From contig OY282377.1 of the NCBI GenBank assembly GCA_958295785.1, forward strand, positions 3,130,385 to 3,194,384: a DNA stretch of 64,000 nucleotides. Direction: 5' to 3'. Below, in pieces: positions 34,639-41,698 of the stretch (positions are counted from its first letter, which is position 1; every line of letters starts with the position of its first letter). Position numbers and translations under genes: made by a program. Under the pieces are notes generated by a model that saw only the letters and a list, made by a program, of their open reading frames with translations, did not search any database and was not told the origin of the DNA. The stretch is from an uncultured Latescibacterota bacterium (GTDB taxonomy: Bacteria > Latescibacterota > UBA2968).

Positions 34639-35679
34639 TTATGTGGTTGCTTTTTGTTGTCGTTCCACAGCATTGCGGATCGCCACCATCTGCCCGATGG
34701 CAAATGCCCATCCGATCCGCGTATCGGGCGTATCGCCCAAAATGCCCGGCGTGTGGTCCGGGTCGATCATGCCATCGTAACCCACTTCTCGAAACGCCTG
34801 CACGCAGGCAAACATATCGCATTCGCCGTCATCGTGAAAGGTCTCCAAATACTTAAATCGCGGAATCTCGACTTTCACATTCCTAAAATGCACTGTGCCA
34901 ATGCGGTTGCGCGACCCAAAATAGCGGATCATCTCCACGGCATCCGCGCCTTTTTCCGTCATTACGCCCGTATCGAAGAAAATGCAGTTGGATGGACTAT
35001 CCACCACATCGATCAGCCGCATCATACCCGCCACATCGCCCAGGGGTTGGGCCACCCCGCGATATTCCGGAATCGGTGGATCGTTGGGATGCGCGGCCAA
35101 CTGAACGCCCGCGCTTTCCGCTGTGGGGATCACGGTTTCGAGAAAATACGTCAGATTGTCCCACATCTCGTCCATGCCAATGCGTCCGATAGAATCGAGT
35201 GGAGGCAAATGGGCGATACGCTCATGGTCAAAATCCCGCAAGTCTGCACCGCCGCGCCCGGCACCGCGCCGCGCAGCATACCCTTCTGATGCTCGGAGGG
35301 CCGTAAAACTGTAATGCAATGCCCGAAGCCCCAGCCGCCCGGCAATTTCGATATTGGCTTTGGCGATCTCCAAATCGTCCGCTCTGCCTGGCTTGCCCAT
35401 CAAAACGCGCCCCGAAATATCCAATCTGGCGACCAAAGGTTGCAAATCAAACGCCTCGATGCGCGCCATAATGCGCTGCAATTCGCGTTCATCCCAAACA
35501 CTTCCCTGCGCGCCTTTTGGCCTGGTCTGAGTCGGCGGCACCAATTTGCGATCCCCGGTTCCCGGGGCCTCTCGCCATCGCATTGGCATCGAGACCGCCT
35601 CCACGCCAATCTGCCGATAAAATCGCAGGGTGTGTTCCGAAACATCGCCAATACCCTTGCCAATTTTGATTTGCGACAT
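34639..35679 (-). CDS. uxuA: mannonate dehydratase
   Basis: A 346-residue TIM-barrel enzyme converting D-mannonate to 2-keto-3-deoxy-gluconate in hexuronate breakdown. Family features: AAHPNDPPIPEYRGVA, NCIFFDTGVMTEKGAD, GTVHFRNV, FHDDGECDM and DPDHTPGILGD (metal-binding His/Asp). The ATG at 35679 follows AAGGAGG. Divergent from the galacturonokinase-like gene across a 138-base gap that holds two palindromic repeats. The pairing of these two uronate genes suggests uronic acids as substrates. Confidence 0.92.
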   Translation of the reverse strand: MSQIKIGKGIGDVSEHTLRFYRQIGVEAVSMPMRWREAPGTGDRKLVPPTQTRPKGAQGSVWDERELQRIMARIEAFDLQPLVARLDISGRVLMGKPGRADDLEIAKANIEIAGRLGLRALHYSFTALRASEGYAARRGAGRGGADLRDFDHERIAHLPPLDSIGRIGMDEMWDNLTYFLETVIPTAESAGVQLAAHPNDPPIPEYRGVAQPLGDVAGMMRLIDVVDSPSNCIFFDTGVMTEKGADAVEMIRYFGSRNRIGTVHFRNVKVEIPRFKYLETFHDDGECDMFACVQAFREVGYDGMIDPDHTPGILGDTPDTRIGWAFAIGQMVAIRNAVERQQKATT

Positions 35680-35708
35680 TGCGTATCCTCCTTGTATCTT
35701 GCATTTTC

Positions 35709-35788
35709 GGGCGGGCACGGGGGCATCGCCCCTACGTTTCTATCCTCGCATCTTGTATCTTTGGGCGAGCACGGGGCATCGCCCCTAC
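35709..35788. repeat. two copies of a GC-rich palindromic intergenic repeat
   Basis: GGGCGGGCACGGGGGCATCG and CCCCTACG (35709-35736) and a shorter second copy (35763-35788). Related copies occur at 42699-42726 and 46636-46661, with a degenerate one near 32651. The core GGGGGC/GCCCC is self-complementary. Confidence 0.65.
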
Positions 35789-35817: not shown

Positions 35818-36999
35818 ATGATAAACCAACTCAAAACCGAAATGAAGACCCGATTTGGCATCGCGCGTAGGGATGTGTGCATCGTGCAATCGCCCTATCG
35901 TATATGTCCGCTCGGCGCGCATATCGACCACCAACTCGGTCGGGTTATGGGCATGGCGATTGATCAGGCGGTATATCTCGCGTTCGCGCCATCGGGCGAT
36001 GAAAACACGCATCTGCAAAGCCTCACCTTTGACGGCGAAGTCTCGTTTGCGCTCGGGGATGTGCCGGACAAAATTGAAGGGGATTGGGGCAATTTCCCGC
36101 GCGGCGCAGTGCGTGCATTGCAACAACGGGGTCACAAACTCGCCCGCGGCATCACAGGCATCACGGCGGGCCGAATGCACGAGGGGGGCTTGAGTTCATC
36201 GGCGGCCATTGGCGTGGCGTATTTGCTCGCATATCAAAAGGCCAATGGCTTGTCCGTCTCGCCCGCGGACAATATCCAGCTCGATCAAGCCATTGAAAAC
36301 AACTATCTCGGCCTGAAAAATGGCATTCTGGATCAATCGACAATTCTCTTATCGCAAAGGGGATTTCTCACTGTGATCGATTGCGCGAGGGCTTCGCACA
36401 AATTGATTCCCCAGTCTCCCGACCTGCAACCCTTTGATATTCTCATCGCCCAATCGGGCCTGCGAGACGCATTGGTCTCCACCGGGTATAACGCGCGGGT
36501 TGACGAATGCGCTCGGGCAGCGCGAGCCCTGCTCAATGCCGCGGGGCGCCCCGATCAACAACCCCTGCTCGGCAACATCACCATCGAAGAATACGAAACG
36601 CACAAAAGCCTGTTGAGCGGCCCTGCTGCCAAACGCGCCCAACACTTTTTTTCGGAATCTGTGCGCGTGCTTCAGGGCATCCGCGCATGGCGCAAGGGCA
36701 ACCTTGCGGGCTTTGGCCGCCTCATCGCGGAATCGGGGCGCAGTTCAATAGAAAATTACGAATGCGGCAGCGAACCCCTCATCGCCCTCTATCGCATCCT
36801 CATCGACACAGATGGGGTTTACGGTGCTCGGTTTAGCGGCGCCGGATTTCGGGGTTGTTGTATCGCCCTGGTCGATCCGCAAAAATCCAGCGCGGCGATG
36901 GAACACATCCGCACGGCTTATCGGGCGAAATATCCCGAGTTGTCAAAAAATGCCTCGGCCTTTATCTGTCACCCCGACGACGGAGCCAGAATCCTGTGA
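35818..36999 (+). CDS. GHMP kinase, probable galacturonokinase
   Basis: A 393-residue sugar kinase. SPYRICPLGAHIDHQ (residues 25-39) differs from the GEHTDY signature of ordinary galactokinases and matches plant galacturonokinase as I recall it. The same is true of GGLSSSAAIGVAYLLA, ENNYLGLKNGILDQS, SSIENYECGSEPLI and YGARFSGAGFRGCC. It would phosphorylate D-galacturonate at C1. The ATG at 35818 is used by default, without a clear ribosome-binding site; ATG 35842 is an alternative. The stop overlaps the next start (GTGA), so it is coupled to a sugar nucleotidyltransferase. Divergent from mannonate dehydratase. Confidence 0.75.
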   Translation: MINQLKTEMKTRFGIARRDVCIVQSPYRICPLGAHIDHQLGRVMGMAIDQAVYLAFAPSGDENTHLQSLTFDGEVSFALGDVPDKIEGDWGNFPRGAVRALQQRGHKLARGITGITAGRMHEGGLSSSAAIGVAYLLAYQKANGLSVSPADNIQLDQAIENNYLGLKNGILDQSTILLSQRGFLTVIDCARASHKLIPQSPDLQPFDILIAQSGLRDALVSTGYNARVDECARAARALLNAAGRPDQQPLLGNITIEEYETHKSLLSGPAAKRAQHFFSESVRVLQGIRAWRKGNLAGFGRLIAESGRSSIENYECGSEPLIALYRILIDTDGVYGARFSGAGFRGCCIALVDPQKSSAAMEHIRTAYRAKYPELSKNASAFICHPDDGARIL

Positions 37000-37742
37000 A
37001 AGCCATTATTCTCGCGGCGGGATATGCCACGCGGCTGTATCCCCTCACCAAAAATTTTCCCAAGCCCTTGCTCGAAGTGGGTGGCAAAACCATTCTCGAC
37101 CACCTCATCGATCAGCTCAAAACCATTTCGGACATTGACCGCGCGTATCTGGTGTCCAACCGCCGATTTTACGACCACTTTGCGGATTGGGCACGCGCAA
37201 AGGGCGAAACGCATCTGCCCATTGAAATTTTGGATGACGGCACGACCTCCAACGACGACCGCTTGGGCGCGGTGGGCGATCTCCTCTTTGCCATTGAAAC
37301 ACGCGCCATTGCCGACGATGTGATCGTTCTCGCGGCGGACAACATCTTGCGGTTTTCCCTGCAAAATTTCGTCAACGCATTCAAAGCCAATCCCGCGCCT
37401 CACATCGCCGTGCGCCACAATCCCAACGACAATGACCGCAAACGCCGGGGCAATGTCCTGCTGGGCGCAAACAACCGCGTCTTGCAATTCATCGAAAAAC
37501 CCGCCAAACCCATTTCCGAATGGTCCGTGCCGCCTTTTTATATTTATCCATCCACCACCTTGCCCCGCGTCAAAGCATACATCGCCAACTGCGGCACACC
37601 AGACGCGCCCGGGCATTTCGCGGAGTGGTTGCACACGCGCGAAACCGTGTATGCCCACGAAACTGACGGCCGCATTTTCGACATTGGCAATCGCGAATCC
37701 CTGTCCGAGGCGCGGGCGTTTTTTCAATCCCAAAACACCTGA
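36996..37742 (+). CDS. sugar-1-phosphate nucleotidyltransferase
   Basis: A 248-residue enzyme starting at a GTG that overlaps the kinase stop by 4 bases. AAGYATRLYPLTKNFPKPLLEVGGK is the nucleotide-binding loop of RmlA/HddC-type transferases; LAADNILRF and FIEKPAKP follow. It would join the kinase product (a sugar-1-phosphate) to a nucleotide. Together they make a two-step route to an activated sugar, plausibly UDP-galacturonate. The nucleotide specificity cannot be read. Confidence 0.85.
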   Translation: MKAIILAAGYATRLYPLTKNFPKPLLEVGGKTILDHLIDQLKTISDIDRAYLVSNRRFYDHFADWARAKGETHLPIEILDDGTTSNDDRLGAVGDLLFAIETRAIADDVIVLAADNILRFSLQNFVNAFKANPAPHIAVRHNPNDNDRKRRGNVLLGANNRVLQFIEKPAKPISEWSVPPFYIYPSTTLPRVKAYIANCGTPDAPGHFAEWLHTRETVYAHETDGRIFDIGNRESLSEARAFFQSQNT

Positions 37743-37803: not shown

Positions 37804-38376
37804 ATGGAAATCGCATTGGATGTCAAGCCTTTTGGCGAACTGACAGAAGATGAATTTTTTGAATTTTGTCAACGCAACGGGGATGTGCGTATTGAGCGCG
37901 ATGCAAAAGGAGAAATACATATTATGCCACTAGCAGGCGGAGCAACGAGTAACCGAAATGCAGGAATCACAATGCAGTTGGGTTTATGGGCAAAACGCGA
38001 TGGGACGGGCATTGCCTTTGATTCCTCGGGCGGCTTTCGGTTGCCCAACCAAGCGGTGCGTTCACCGGATGCGTCCTGGGTCTTGCGCTGGCGTTATGAC
38101 CAATTGACCAACAGGGAACAAGAGCGATTTTTACCCCTGTGTCCCGATTTTGCCATTGAACTCAAATCGCCCTCGGATACTCTTTCTGTGCTGAAACGCA
38201 AAATGGACGAGTATATCGAAAATGGCCTGCAACTCGGTTGGCTCATTGAACCGAAGCAGAAAACCGTTCATATTTATCGTCCGCATCTGCCCGTTGAAAT
38301 CCGCGACAATCCCAACACCTTATCCGCCGATCCAATTCTATCGGGATTTATTTTGGATCTCACGGAAATTTGGTGA
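37804..38376 (+). CDS. Uma2-family nuclease-like protein, tandem copy 1
   Basis: A 190-residue protein with GGAGG 9 bases before the ATG. Shows the Uma2/DUF820 layout of a PD-(D/E)XK fold: SPDASWVLR (Asp), CPDFAIELKSPSDTLSVLKRKM (E-x-K) and GLQLGWLIEPKQKTVHIYR. Function of the family is unknown. Some members are named endonucleases by fold only. First of four nearly identical genes. Confidence 0.85.
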   Translation: MEIALDVKPFGELTEDEFFEFCQRNGDVRIERDAKGEIHIMPLAGGATSNRNAGITMQLGLWAKRDGTGIAFDSSGGFRLPNQAVRSPDASWVLRWRYDQLTNREQERFLPLCPDFAIELKSPSDTLSVLKRKMDEYIENGLQLGWLIEPKQKTVHIYRPHLPVEIRDNPNTLSADPILSGFILDLTEIW

Positions 38377-38407
38377 GATGAGCATTTTATCAATAGGGGA
38401 ATGTGCT

Positions 38408-38980
38408 ATGGAAATTGCATTGGATGTCAAGCCCTTTGGCGAACTGACAGAGGATGAATTTTTTGAATTTTGCCAGCGCACCCATGATGTGCGTATTGAA
38501 CGCGATGCAAAAGGAGAAATACATATTATGCCACCAGCAGGCGGAGCGACGGGCAATCGAAATGCGGGGATCACAACACAAGTGTATTTATGGGCAAAAC
38601 GCGATGGCACGGGTGTTGCGTTTGATTCCTCAACTGGCTTTCGGTTGCCCAACCAAGCGGTGCGTTCGCCGGATGCGTCCTGGGTCTTGCGCTGGCGTTA
38701 TGACCAATTGACCAACAGGGAACAAGAGCGATTTCTACCCCTATGTCCCGATTTTGCCATTGAACTCAAATCGCCCTCGGATACTCTTTCTGTGCTGAAA
38801 CGCAAAATGGATGAATATATCGAAAATGGCCTGCAACTCGGTTGGCTCATTGAACCGAAGCAGAAAACCGTTCATATTTATCGTCCGCATCTGCCCGTTG
38901 AAATACGCGACAATCCCAACACTTTGTCCGCCGATCCAATTCTACCGGGATTTATTTTGGATCTCACGGAAATTTGGTGA
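38408..38980 (+). CDS. Uma2-family nuclease-like protein, tandem copy 2
   Basis: A 190-residue near-copy of the preceding protein. Differences cluster in residues 25-65 (THDVRIERDAKGE, PPAGGATGN, QVYLW); the C-terminal 110 residues are almost identical down to the DNA. It begins 31 bases after copy 1. The leader GAATGTGCT before its ATG is shared with copies 3 and 4, so the unit duplicated with its leader. Confidence 0.85.
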   Translation: MEIALDVKPFGELTEDEFFEFCQRTHDVRIERDAKGEIHIMPPAGGATGNRNAGITTQVYLWAKRDGTGVAFDSSTGFRLPNQAVRSPDASWVLRWRYDQLTNREQERFLPLCPDFAIELKSPSDTLSVLKRKMDEYIENGLQLGWLIEPKQKTVHIYRPHLPVEIRDNPNTLSADPILPGFILDLTEIW

Positions 38981-39011
38981 GGTGAGCATTTTATCAAAAG
39001 GGGAATGTGCT

Positions 39012-39728
39012 ATGGAAATTGCATTGGATGTCAAGCCTTTTGTCGAACTGACAGAGGATGAATTTTTTGAATTTTGTCAACGCAACCGCGATGCGCGTAT
39101 CGAACGCGATGCACGAGGAGGAATACGAATTACGCCACCAGCAGGAGAGGCTACGATAGAAACCGTATTGGATGTAGAGCCTTTTGTCGGGCTTACGGAG
39201 GATGAATTTTTTGAGTTTTGCCAGCGCACCCATGATGTGCGTATTGAACGCGATGCACGAGGAGGAATACTGATTATGCCACCGACAGGAGGTGCGACGG
39301 GCAATCGAAATTTGGAGATCGAAATACAGTTGGGTTTATGGGCAAAACGCGATGGGACGGGCATTGCGTTCAATTCTTCAACTGGCTTTCGGTTGCCCAA
39401 CCAAGCGGTGCGCTCGCCGGATGCGTCCTGGGTCTTGCGCTGGCGTTACGATCAGTTGACAGAACGAGAACGAGAGCGATTTCTGCCTCTATGTCCTGAT
39501 TTTGCCATTGAACTCAAATCGCCCTCGGATACTCTTTCTGTGCTGAAACGCAAAATGGACGAGTATATCGAAAATGGCCTGCAACTCGGTTGGCTCATTG
39601 AACCGAAGCAGAAAACCGTTCATATTTATCGTCCGCATCTGCCCGTTGAGGTGCGCGACAATATCAACACCCTATCCGCCGATCCAATTTTGTCGGGATT
39701 TATTTTGGATCTCACGGAAATTTGGTGA
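39012..39728 (+). CDS. Uma2-family nuclease-like protein, tandem copy 3, duplicated N-terminus
   Basis: A 238-residue member. Residues 1-48 (LDVKPFVELTEDEFFEFCQ...) are repeated at 49-96 (LDVEPFVGLTEDEFFEFCQ...), followed by the standard catalytic part with SPDASWV and CPDFAIELKSPSD. The duplicated block is in frame, making the protein 48 residues longer than copies 1 and 2. The same duplication is in copy 4, so it preceded that gene duplication. Confidence 0.85.
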   Translation: MEIALDVKPFVELTEDEFFEFCQRNRDARIERDARGGIRITPPAGEATIETVLDVEPFVGLTEDEFFEFCQRTHDVRIERDARGGILIMPPTGGATGNRNLEIEIQLGLWAKRDGTGIAFNSSTGFRLPNQAVRSPDASWVLRWRYDQLTERERERFLPLCPDFAIELKSPSDTLSVLKRKMDEYIENGLQLGWLIEPKQKTVHIYRPHLPVEVRDNINTLSADPILSGFILDLTEIW

Positions 39729-39759
39729 GATGAGCATTTTATCAAAAGGGGAATGTGCT

Positions 39760-40476
39760 ATGGAAATTGCATTGGATGTCAAGCCTTTTGTTGAACTGAC
39801 AGAGGATGCGTTTTTTGAATTTTGTCAACGCAACCGCGATGCGCGTATCGAGCGCGATGCACGAGGAGGAATACGAATTACGCCACCAGCAGGAGAGGCT
39901 ACGATAGAAACCGTATTGGATGTAGAGCCTTTTGTCGAACTGACAGAGGATGAATTTTTTGAATTTTGCCAGCGCACCCATGATGTGCGTATTGAACGCG
40001 ATGCAGAAGGAGGAATACGAATTATGCCACCGACAGGAGGTGCGACGGGCAATCGAAATTTGGCGATAGAAACCCAGTTGTATTTATGGGCAGAACAAGA
40101 TGGCACGGGCATTGCCTTTAATTCCTCAACTGGTTTTCGGTTGCCCAACCAAGCGGTGCGTTCGCCGGATGCGTCCTGGGTCTTGCGCTGGCGTTACGAT
40201 CAGTTGACAGAACGAGAACAAGAGCGATTTCTACCCCTGTGTCCCGATTTTGCCGTTGAACTCAAATCGCCCTCGGATACTCTTTCTGTGCTGAAACGCA
40301 AAATGGACGAGTATATCGAAAACGGCCTACAACTCGGTTGGCTCATCAACCCCAAGCAGAAAACCGTTCATATTTACCGTCCGCATCTGCCCGTTGAAAT
40401 ACGCGACAATATCAACACCCTATCCGCCGATCCAATTCTATCGGGATTTATTTTGGATCTCACTAAAATCTGGTAG
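39760..40476 (+). CDS. Uma2-family nuclease-like protein, tandem copy 4, duplicated N-terminus
   Basis: A 238-residue close copy of the third gene, with the same 48-residue N-terminal duplication. Changes include EDAFFEF, LWAEQDGTGIAF and INPKQKTV. Catalytic-site residues (SPDASW, CPDFAVELKSPSD) are kept. It is last in the array and 25 bases ahead of the RidA-like gene. Confidence 0.85.
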   Translation: MEIALDVKPFVELTEDAFFEFCQRNRDARIERDARGGIRITPPAGEATIETVLDVEPFVELTEDEFFEFCQRTHDVRIERDAEGGIRIMPPTGGATGNRNLAIETQLYLWAEQDGTGIAFNSSTGFRLPNQAVRSPDASWVLRWRYDQLTEREQERFLPLCPDFAVELKSPSDTLSVLKRKMDEYIENGLQLGWLINPKQKTVHIYRPHLPVEIRDNINTLSADPILSGFILDLTKIW

Positions 40477-40501: not shown

Positions 40502-41698
40502 ATGGCAAGCGTTCACATCATCCGTCACAAGCCCATCCCCATTTTTGCCAGCACAGCCGAAGTCGTGATTACCTACGACGACACCCAAGTTGCGCGCCTC
40601 GTTGAACCCAGCGGCAATGTGGGCACGCAATATCCCAACGAACTCGGCGCAGAGTGGTTTGGCACAATTGAAAACCTCAGCGCGGGCCTCGCACGCGGGG
40701 GCGCGAACTGGGGCGATGTGTACAAAACCGATGTTCTTTGGACCACGCCCTCTGGTAGGCGCGACGACTGCGCGGCTTATCGAGATGCGTTCAACGCGAT
40801 CTATGCCCCGATGAGTAGCGCGGCGACCGGTTGCGAGCTCAAATCCAATCGCATGGCGCGCTTCACCCACCCGGAGGGATTCCCCGATCCCAGAGCACTC
40901 TTTGAGGTGGAGATCAAGGCCATCAAGGGCGAAGACATTTCTTTTGGCGATGGCAAAATCGAATACGGCGCGTGGACCGATCACCAACCCAGCGGTGCCT
41001 CGGTGATGCACGTCGATGATCGGGGCAATATCGCGACGACACTCGGCGGCGACCTCAAACGAGAAACGGAATTTGTGCTCGAACAATACGCAAAAAAGCT
41101 CGCGGCTGACACTGTCGATTTCAAAACGCAAACCGTCTATCTCGAAGCCCTCGTCGCCATTGACGACGATCCTGCGGCGATTTGGGCGCGCATTGAAACC
41201 GTGCGCGACGCGATAGCCAATTATTTTGGCGACCATCGCCCCGCCGGCAAAATCTATGCGGTCTCGCGCATTCCCAACCTCGATGGCGTTGTCGAACTCC
41301 AGCCGCGCTGTGTCACCGGCGATGTCGCCATTGACCGCTCGGACCATATCGCCGATGGCTTCAGCACATGGACGGCCATTCGCAGGCAAGGGGTGTCCGA
41401 AGTGCTGATCAGCGGCGTTGGTGGCGACGATGCCGCCGCCATTCTCAACGCCATTGACGCGCACATCAAAGCCGCAGGCGGCGCAGGGCTGAAAGAAAAT
41501 GGGGTTTTCAACAATGCCTATATTGTTGCCGCCGAAAGCAGCGCGGCCTCACGCGAGCGTCTCGCCACCTTCAACGACCAATTCTCGGGCTATTACACGG
41601 GTGTTGCGCCTTCTGGCCGAACCGCCCAATTTGTGCCCGGCTTCATGCGCGACAACCACATCTGCGGCATATCAAACCGCACGATATTTGCGGGGTAA
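40502..41698 (+). CDS. tandem RidA-like (YjgF/UK114 fold) protein
   Basis: A 398-residue protein that may hold two RidA-like domains. The first includes ANWGDVYKTDVLWTT, YRDAFNAIY and DPRALFEVEIKAI (about 60-150). The second has YLEALVAIDDDPAAIWARIETVRDAIANYF and VVELQPRCV (about 220-280). RidA enzymes deaminate reactive enamines and end in a similar VEIEAVA strand. The catalytic Arg is not clearly placed, so the assignment is tentative. The start ATG 40502 is chosen because upstream codons belong to the Uma2 end. No strong ribosome-binding site. Confidence 0.45.
   Translation: MASVHIIRHKPIPIFASTAEVVITYDDTQVARLVEPSGNVGTQYPNELGAEWFGTIENLSAGLARGGANWGDVYKTDVLWTTPSGRRDDCAAYRDAFNAIYAPMSSAATGCELKSNRMARFTHPEGFPDPRALFEVEIKAIKGEDISFGDGKIEYGAWTDHQPSGASVMHVDDRGNIATTLGGDLKRETEFVLEQYAKKLAADTVDFKTQTVYLEALVAIDDDPAAIWARIETVRDAIANYFGDHRPAGKIYAVSRIPNLDGVVELQPRCVTGDVAIDRSDHIADGFSTWTAIRRQGVSEVLISGVGGDDAAAILNAIDAHIKAAGGAGLKENGVFNNAYIVAAESSAASRERLATFNDQFSGYYTGVAPSGRTAQFVPGFMRDNHICGISNRTIFAG

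Follow-up and report, generated by a model that had tools for sequence, protein, structure and literature searches.

A galacturonokinase-like kinase translationally coupled to a sugar nucleotidyltransferase in Latescibacterota and a probable bacterial route to UDP-galacturonate

Introduction

Galacturonic acid is the main sugar of pectin. Plants salvage it with a galacturonokinase followed by a separate broad-range UDP-sugar pyrophosphorylase (PMC3659416, PMC8636097). A related arrangement is found in zebrafish, where the glucuronokinase DrGKUP carries an N-terminal nucleotidyltransferase (NTase) domain whose relatives include NTases of bacteria and archaea. In PMC3938481, this domain gave only traces of UDP-GlcA after 70 h, and its prokaryotic relatives are described as NTase only. 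A paper on UDP-GlcA 4-epimerase (PMC7984243) states that galacturonate-1-phosphate can no longer be bought and that its authors found the known GalA kinase too weak and unstable. Among the open-access papers that our literature searches listed, none describes a bacterial galacturonokinase, and searches for the peptide motifs of the kinase and for galactokinase contact residues found nothing.

The window analyzed here is a stretch of 64,000 nucleotides from an uncultured member of the Latescibacterota, the genome of which is 5.66 Mb in one contig. It holds a kinase and NTase pair that, judging from its sequences, probably makes UDP-galacturonate from free galacturonate by way of galacturonate-1-phosphate.

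Results

Both reading frames reported by the initial annotation were found. The first (35818..36999, + strand) encodes a galacturonokinase-like GHMP sugar-1-kinase of 393 aa, assigned from the ORF, Pfam and NCBIfam searches, relatives, a tree, and an alignment. The second (36996..37742, +) encodes a sugar-1-phosphate NTase (PF00483) of 248 aa with a GTG start, the putative UDP-GalA-forming enzyme. The quoted kinase motifs are present, SPYRICPLGAHIDHQ as residues 25-39 (35890..35934, +), which include Ala34 (Glu in galactokinases), and SSIENYECGSEPLI as residues 309-322 of the translated ORF. The translational coupling claimed for the pair was also borne out: the start of the NTase and the stop of the kinase overlap in the 4-bp GTGA at 36996..36999 (+), and a GGAG lies within the 3' end of the kinase at 36982..36985 (+), 10 nt 5' of the GTG start; the further loci with an overlap that were displayed have this GGAG in front of it as well. 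Both frames are real genes, since relatives with 77-81% identity were present in 10/10 further genomes of the genus and the differences between the window and locus L007 fall as 48/36/143 on codon positions 1/2/3. The gap 5' of the kinase contains two copies of GGGCATCGCCCCTAC, at 35721 and 35774, and no further copy was found on either strand of the window.

Relatives of the kinase with at least 49% identity were found in 19 of the 64 Latescibacterota genomes, the copy in G019 being split by a disruption; further matches in this phylum, at 35% identity or less, were GalK-like. A profile search (E<=1e-80) placed the kinase in 5/387 Verrucomicrobiota and in 4/35 genomes of the phylum of genome G065. 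The NTase lies directly 3' of the kinase in 15 of the 19 kinase-bearing Latescibacterota and in 5/5 Verrucomicrobiota, and wherever an NTase was near a kinase it was directly downstream (20/20 loci), with a 4-bp stop/start overlap in 16 loci and gaps of 44, 67, 107, and 139 bases in the others. The eight kinase genomes with no adjacent NTase are split equally between Latescibacterota and the G065 phylum; the four Latescibacterota (G018, G057, G062, and G063) gave no NTase genome-wide at E<=1e-50. Conversely, seven of the 64 Latescibacterota (G016, G017, and G020-G024) have the NTase without the kinase. Amidohydrolase-2 genes occur near the pair in several loci (L090-L094 and L040-L042), and they are kept in genomes G020-G024 of Latescibacterota family f2, where the NTase stays and the kinase is missing. 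Among plasmids, one from Lactococcus garvieae matched both proteins best (kinase 42%, NTase 39%). At this locus (L071:12001-13882), the kinase is split by a frame change and the NTase has two stops, by decay or sequencing errors.

The catabolic pathway that includes mannonate is that of glucuronate and not that of galacturonate. The divergent neighbor of the kinase (34639..35718, - strand), described initially as a catabolic mannonate dehydratase, proved to be a TIM-barrel gene with a UxuA-like Pfam match (149 bits against a cut-off of 23.7) that reaches neither of the two NCBIfam cut-offs for mannonate dehydratase (118 bits of 191, 88 bits of 199.55). Among the loci examined, a UxuA-like gene adjoins the kinase in the genus of the window and, more weakly, in G028. 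With the gene below the curated cut-offs and its proximity to the kinase confined mainly to one genus, this link was dropped as evidence, and the proposed function does not require it. On the other side of the pair, a tandem series of four overlapping ORFs from a single repeated family, which we take to be Uma2-like, occupies 37804-40476, between the NTase and a conserved gene of unassigned function (40505..41698, +). The latter, which is directly 3' of the NTase in many Latescibacterota loci, had no Pfam or NCBIfam match (nor did its counterparts in L040-L047) and only weakly matched YabJ/RidA-type structures (best E 0.009).

To place the kinase relative to the plant enzyme, a provisional 424-aa Arabidopsis GalAK sequence, not drawn from a database, was included in the comparisons. 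This provisional sequence shares 49.5% identity with the window kinase, against 27-32% with the GalK rows, and in the tree it nests within the bacterial kinase clade (support 100/99). A topology in which the 19 bacterial rows form a clade that excludes it had a p-AU of 0.0506 and was not rejected at 0.05. On the alignment the provisional sequence reaches up to 54% identity to other bacterial rows and 52% to the window kinase; being as close to the other rows, it was not simply modeled on the window kinase.

The active-site columns were compared in 19 clade rows and 11 GalK rows, the Lactococcus row being a C-terminal piece only. Among the galactose-contact columns, the clade keeps Arg28, His35, and Asp37 in 18/18 rows, Gly169 and Asp172 in 19/19, and Tyr224 in 18/19. 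Two positions differ. Position 34 carries Ala throughout the clade (18/18 rows) where the GalK rows carry Glu, that of GEHTDY (11/11); at position 345, in motif III, 16 of the 19 clade rows have Arg and 3 have Lys, against Gly in all 11 GalK rows. In the numbering of the human enzyme, Ala34 corresponds to the O6 contact Glu43, and an Ala in place of the GalK Glu is presumably a mark of GalAK. The loss of an acidic residue near O6 together with the gain of a basic one would fit a carboxylate at C6.

These substitutions point to an acidic C6 and not to the configuration at C4, so the kinase could also act on another acidic sugar, such as glucuronate, a hexosaminuronate, or guluronate, which the NTase would then activate. 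Eight Verrucomicrobiota NTase loci without a window-type kinase were looked at, and in L098 (genome G244; L098:1960-3741) a window-type NTase, sister to a galacturonokinase-paired NTase (support 97/89), lies directly 3' of a GHMP kinase 42% identical to a provisional Arabidopsis glucuronokinase sequence. Glucuronokinase-like enzymes form a separate GHMP group, however: against the same provisional sequence the L098 kinase scored E 2e-72, and the window kinase showed no such similarity (E 7.5). In addition, the galactose-contact residues other than the Glu are kept in the window clade. We therefore regard another acidic sugar as unlikely, and galacturonate as the better candidate.

The kinase has a galactokinase fold. 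The galactokinase-type GHMP domains PF10509, PF00288, and PF08544 were all over their Pfam cut-offs, and a fold search with a structure model (built from 5 sequences, mean pLDDT 76) confirmed the galactokinase fold and nothing further. A structure-based reading of the sugar pocket was abandoned because pLDDT was under 50 at residues 31-50, 167-180, and 341-345, stretches that include the key residues. All five NCBIfam galactokinase models match the window kinase but none reaches its cut-off (TIGR00131, 195 of 226.65 bits), and HddA and fucokinase, which the initial annotation had named as possible better matches, were not; only the galactokinase models match well. In the tree the clade separates from 10 GalK rows with support 100/100. 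Together with Ala34 and Arg/Lys345, this favors the earlier description of the kinase as plant galacturonokinase-like and not a galactokinase. The genome also carries two other kinase loci with a galactose-binding signature, a true GalK that passes two galactokinase cut-offs (TIGR00131, 362.6; NF003705, 407.9) and a third GHMP kinase; since it has this GalK, adjoining a galE-galT ORF apart from the window locus, and the third kinase, the window kinase is unlikely to serve galactose. The galE-galT ORF (L106:5893-8052) is a single frame of 719 aa that joins GalE and GalT directly 5' of galK. The third kinase (L061, G000:C1 near 5111713) adjoins a GalU-like ORF and is 28.6% identical to a provisional plant glucuronokinase sequence.

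A divergent galactokinase would allow the pair to make UDP-galactose by kinase and pyrophosphorylase without GalT, and besides the fold, the company kept by the NTase family speaks for this. An NTase match was found in 8/35 genomes of the G065 phylum, and in four of these it lies in an open frame of 617-641 aa. Three NTase-galactokinase fusions of 618-620 aa in this phylum (L122:1501-3363, +; L123:346-2208, -; L124:1501-3357, +) were read, and each carries a true GEHTDY galactokinase in which the two key positions are Glu and Gly; in L121, the NTase overlaps a galactokinase gene. The same fusions set the window kinase apart, as the L122 kinase domain passes two galactokinase cut-offs and the window kinase none. 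With the Glu-to-Ala and Gly-to-Arg/Lys changes in every clade row and a galK of its own in the genome, a divergent galactokinase is unlikely, and galacturonate remains the preferred candidate substrate.

The NTase scored 97.2 bits with PF00483 (cut-off 21.2) and was under the NCBIfam equivalog cut-offs of AglF (73 of 400 bits), GalU (40 of 327), and RmlA (37 of 361). A fold search with its model returned UDP-glucose pyrophosphorylases at Z 23.8, and the model resembles GalU, RmlA, and further NTases to the same degree. Its top plasmid matches include Natrinema pellirubrum, Natronorubrum bangense, and Halopiger xanaduensis, which are also among the prokaryotic relatives in figure 3 of the DrGKUP paper (PMC3938481); the overlap seen consists of species names common to both lists. 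The haloarchaeal and Rhizobium neighborhoods of the NTase held no recognizable kinase, and a phage search gave remote matches only. It is improbable that the NTase takes some nucleotide besides UTP, or that its sugar-1-phosphate comes from elsewhere than this kinase: its even-handed fold, the seven Latescibacterota that have it without the kinase, and the traces of product from the zebrafish domain would suit this, but the stop/start overlap with the kinase is conserved in two phyla.

In two relatives the pair lies in polysaccharide operons, next to a UDP-glucuronate-4-epimerase-type gene. In an exopolysaccharide locus of a Verrucomicrobiota genome (L065, G417), the kinase and then the NTase are followed by an SDR epimerase, a Cps4B-like phosphatase (70.9 bits, below its cut-off), and polysaccharide export genes, the last assigned by reading ORFs. 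On the Lactococcus plasmid (L071), it is SDR, kinase, NTase, nucleotide sugar dehydrogenase, and glycosyltransferases. The two SDRs are 72% identical to each other and under all NCBIfam cut-offs; among solved structures 5u4q is closest to them (372/358 bits), and WbgU and the characterized UDP-glucuronate 4-epimerase 6zl6 (138/132 bits) rank after it. We take 6zl6 to be the Bacillus cereus enzyme of the UDP-GlcA 4-epimerase paper. A Klebsiella pneumoniae protein is 54% identical to the SDR and is presumably the UDP-galacturonate 4-epimerase recorded for that species in a reference of PMC7984243. The genome of the window has a 51% homolog of the L065 SDR, far from the window locus and adjoining a heparinase-like gene, so UDP-GalA may be supplied both de novo and by salvage. 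The two operons may not be independent, because their kinase rows (L054, the same locus as L065, and Lactococcus) are sisters in the tree (support 83/53).

Discussion

From the gene structure, the conserved coupling, the family, the active-site substitutions, the separate galactokinase, and the epimerase/UDP-glucose dehydrogenase context in relatives, all of them observed, we infer which substrate is used, that UTP is the donor, and where the product goes. Like plant galacturonokinase, the GHMP kinase would use ATP to phosphorylate D-galacturonate at C1, the coupled NTase would transfer UMP from UTP onto galacturonate-1-phosphate, and the UDP-galacturonate formed would feed polysaccharide or glycoconjugate synthesis. 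Galacturonate is the best supported reading because of the clade, the substitutions, the coupling, and the two operons with a UDP-glucuronate-4-epimerase-type gene. The two-enzyme route put forward in the initial annotation is therefore retained in outline, with the qualification that the NTase is not of the plant type and that its family also accompanies glucuronokinase-like and galactokinase partners. The route known from plants seems common to several bacterial phyla.

Since one NTase family pairs with galacturonokinase-like, glucuronokinase-like, or galactokinase partners, an NTase partner is not by itself proof of the sugar, and as far as sequences tell, it is the kinase and not the NTase that marks it. 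Kinases of the glucuronokinase-like type were found in 125/387 Verrucomicrobiota (E<=1e-20); in the best 12 of their loci (L109-L120 among them), the gene after the kinase is a GalU-like NTase in 11 and a window-type NTase in one (G244). It is possible, and we suggest it tentatively, that these are modular two-enzyme salvage cassettes of bacteria, in which one short NTase family is joined to an anomeric kinase that sets the sugar (galacturonokinase-like, glucuronokinase-like in L098, galactokinase in L122-L124), with GalU-like NTases taking this place beside the glucuronokinase-like kinases of Verrucomicrobiota, and that plant galacturonokinase is an acquired bacterial enzyme that lost its NTase partner. 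The pairs and fusions described here go beyond the NTase-only description of the prokaryotic relatives in the published text.

The bacterial kinase with its cotranslated NTase could be a better enzyme source for UDP-GalA, and the pair could give bacteria a route from the pectin sugar straight to a nucleotide sugar. The kinase is a possible origin of plant galacturonokinase, and the bacterial NTase relatives, being separate proteins, offer a handle on the role of the NTase domain of animal glucuronokinase.

The pair would be a new form, in bacteria, of the known plant salvage route. Over its whole length the window kinase has about 50% identity with plant GalAK (Arabidopsis At3g10700, EC 2.7.1.44; provisional sequence), with which it has the motifs AHIDHQ, ENYECG, and GAGFRGCC in common, but it is bacterial and cotranslated with its own NTase, a member of a short NTase family, whereas the plant UDP-sugar pyrophosphorylase is a different type of enzyme. 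With the galactokinase GalK (TIGR00131) it has in common the fold, the domains, the catalytic Asp and Arg, and most of the sugar-contact columns; it differs in its identity of 28-35%, in scores under the curated cut-offs, and in the clade's replacement of Glu by Ala and of Gly by Arg/Lys. Zebrafish DrGKUP, as described in PMC3938481, likewise joins an anomeric uronate kinase to a short bacterial-type NTase, but its kinase is of the glucuronokinase group and the two activities reside in one fused protein, with the NTase first.
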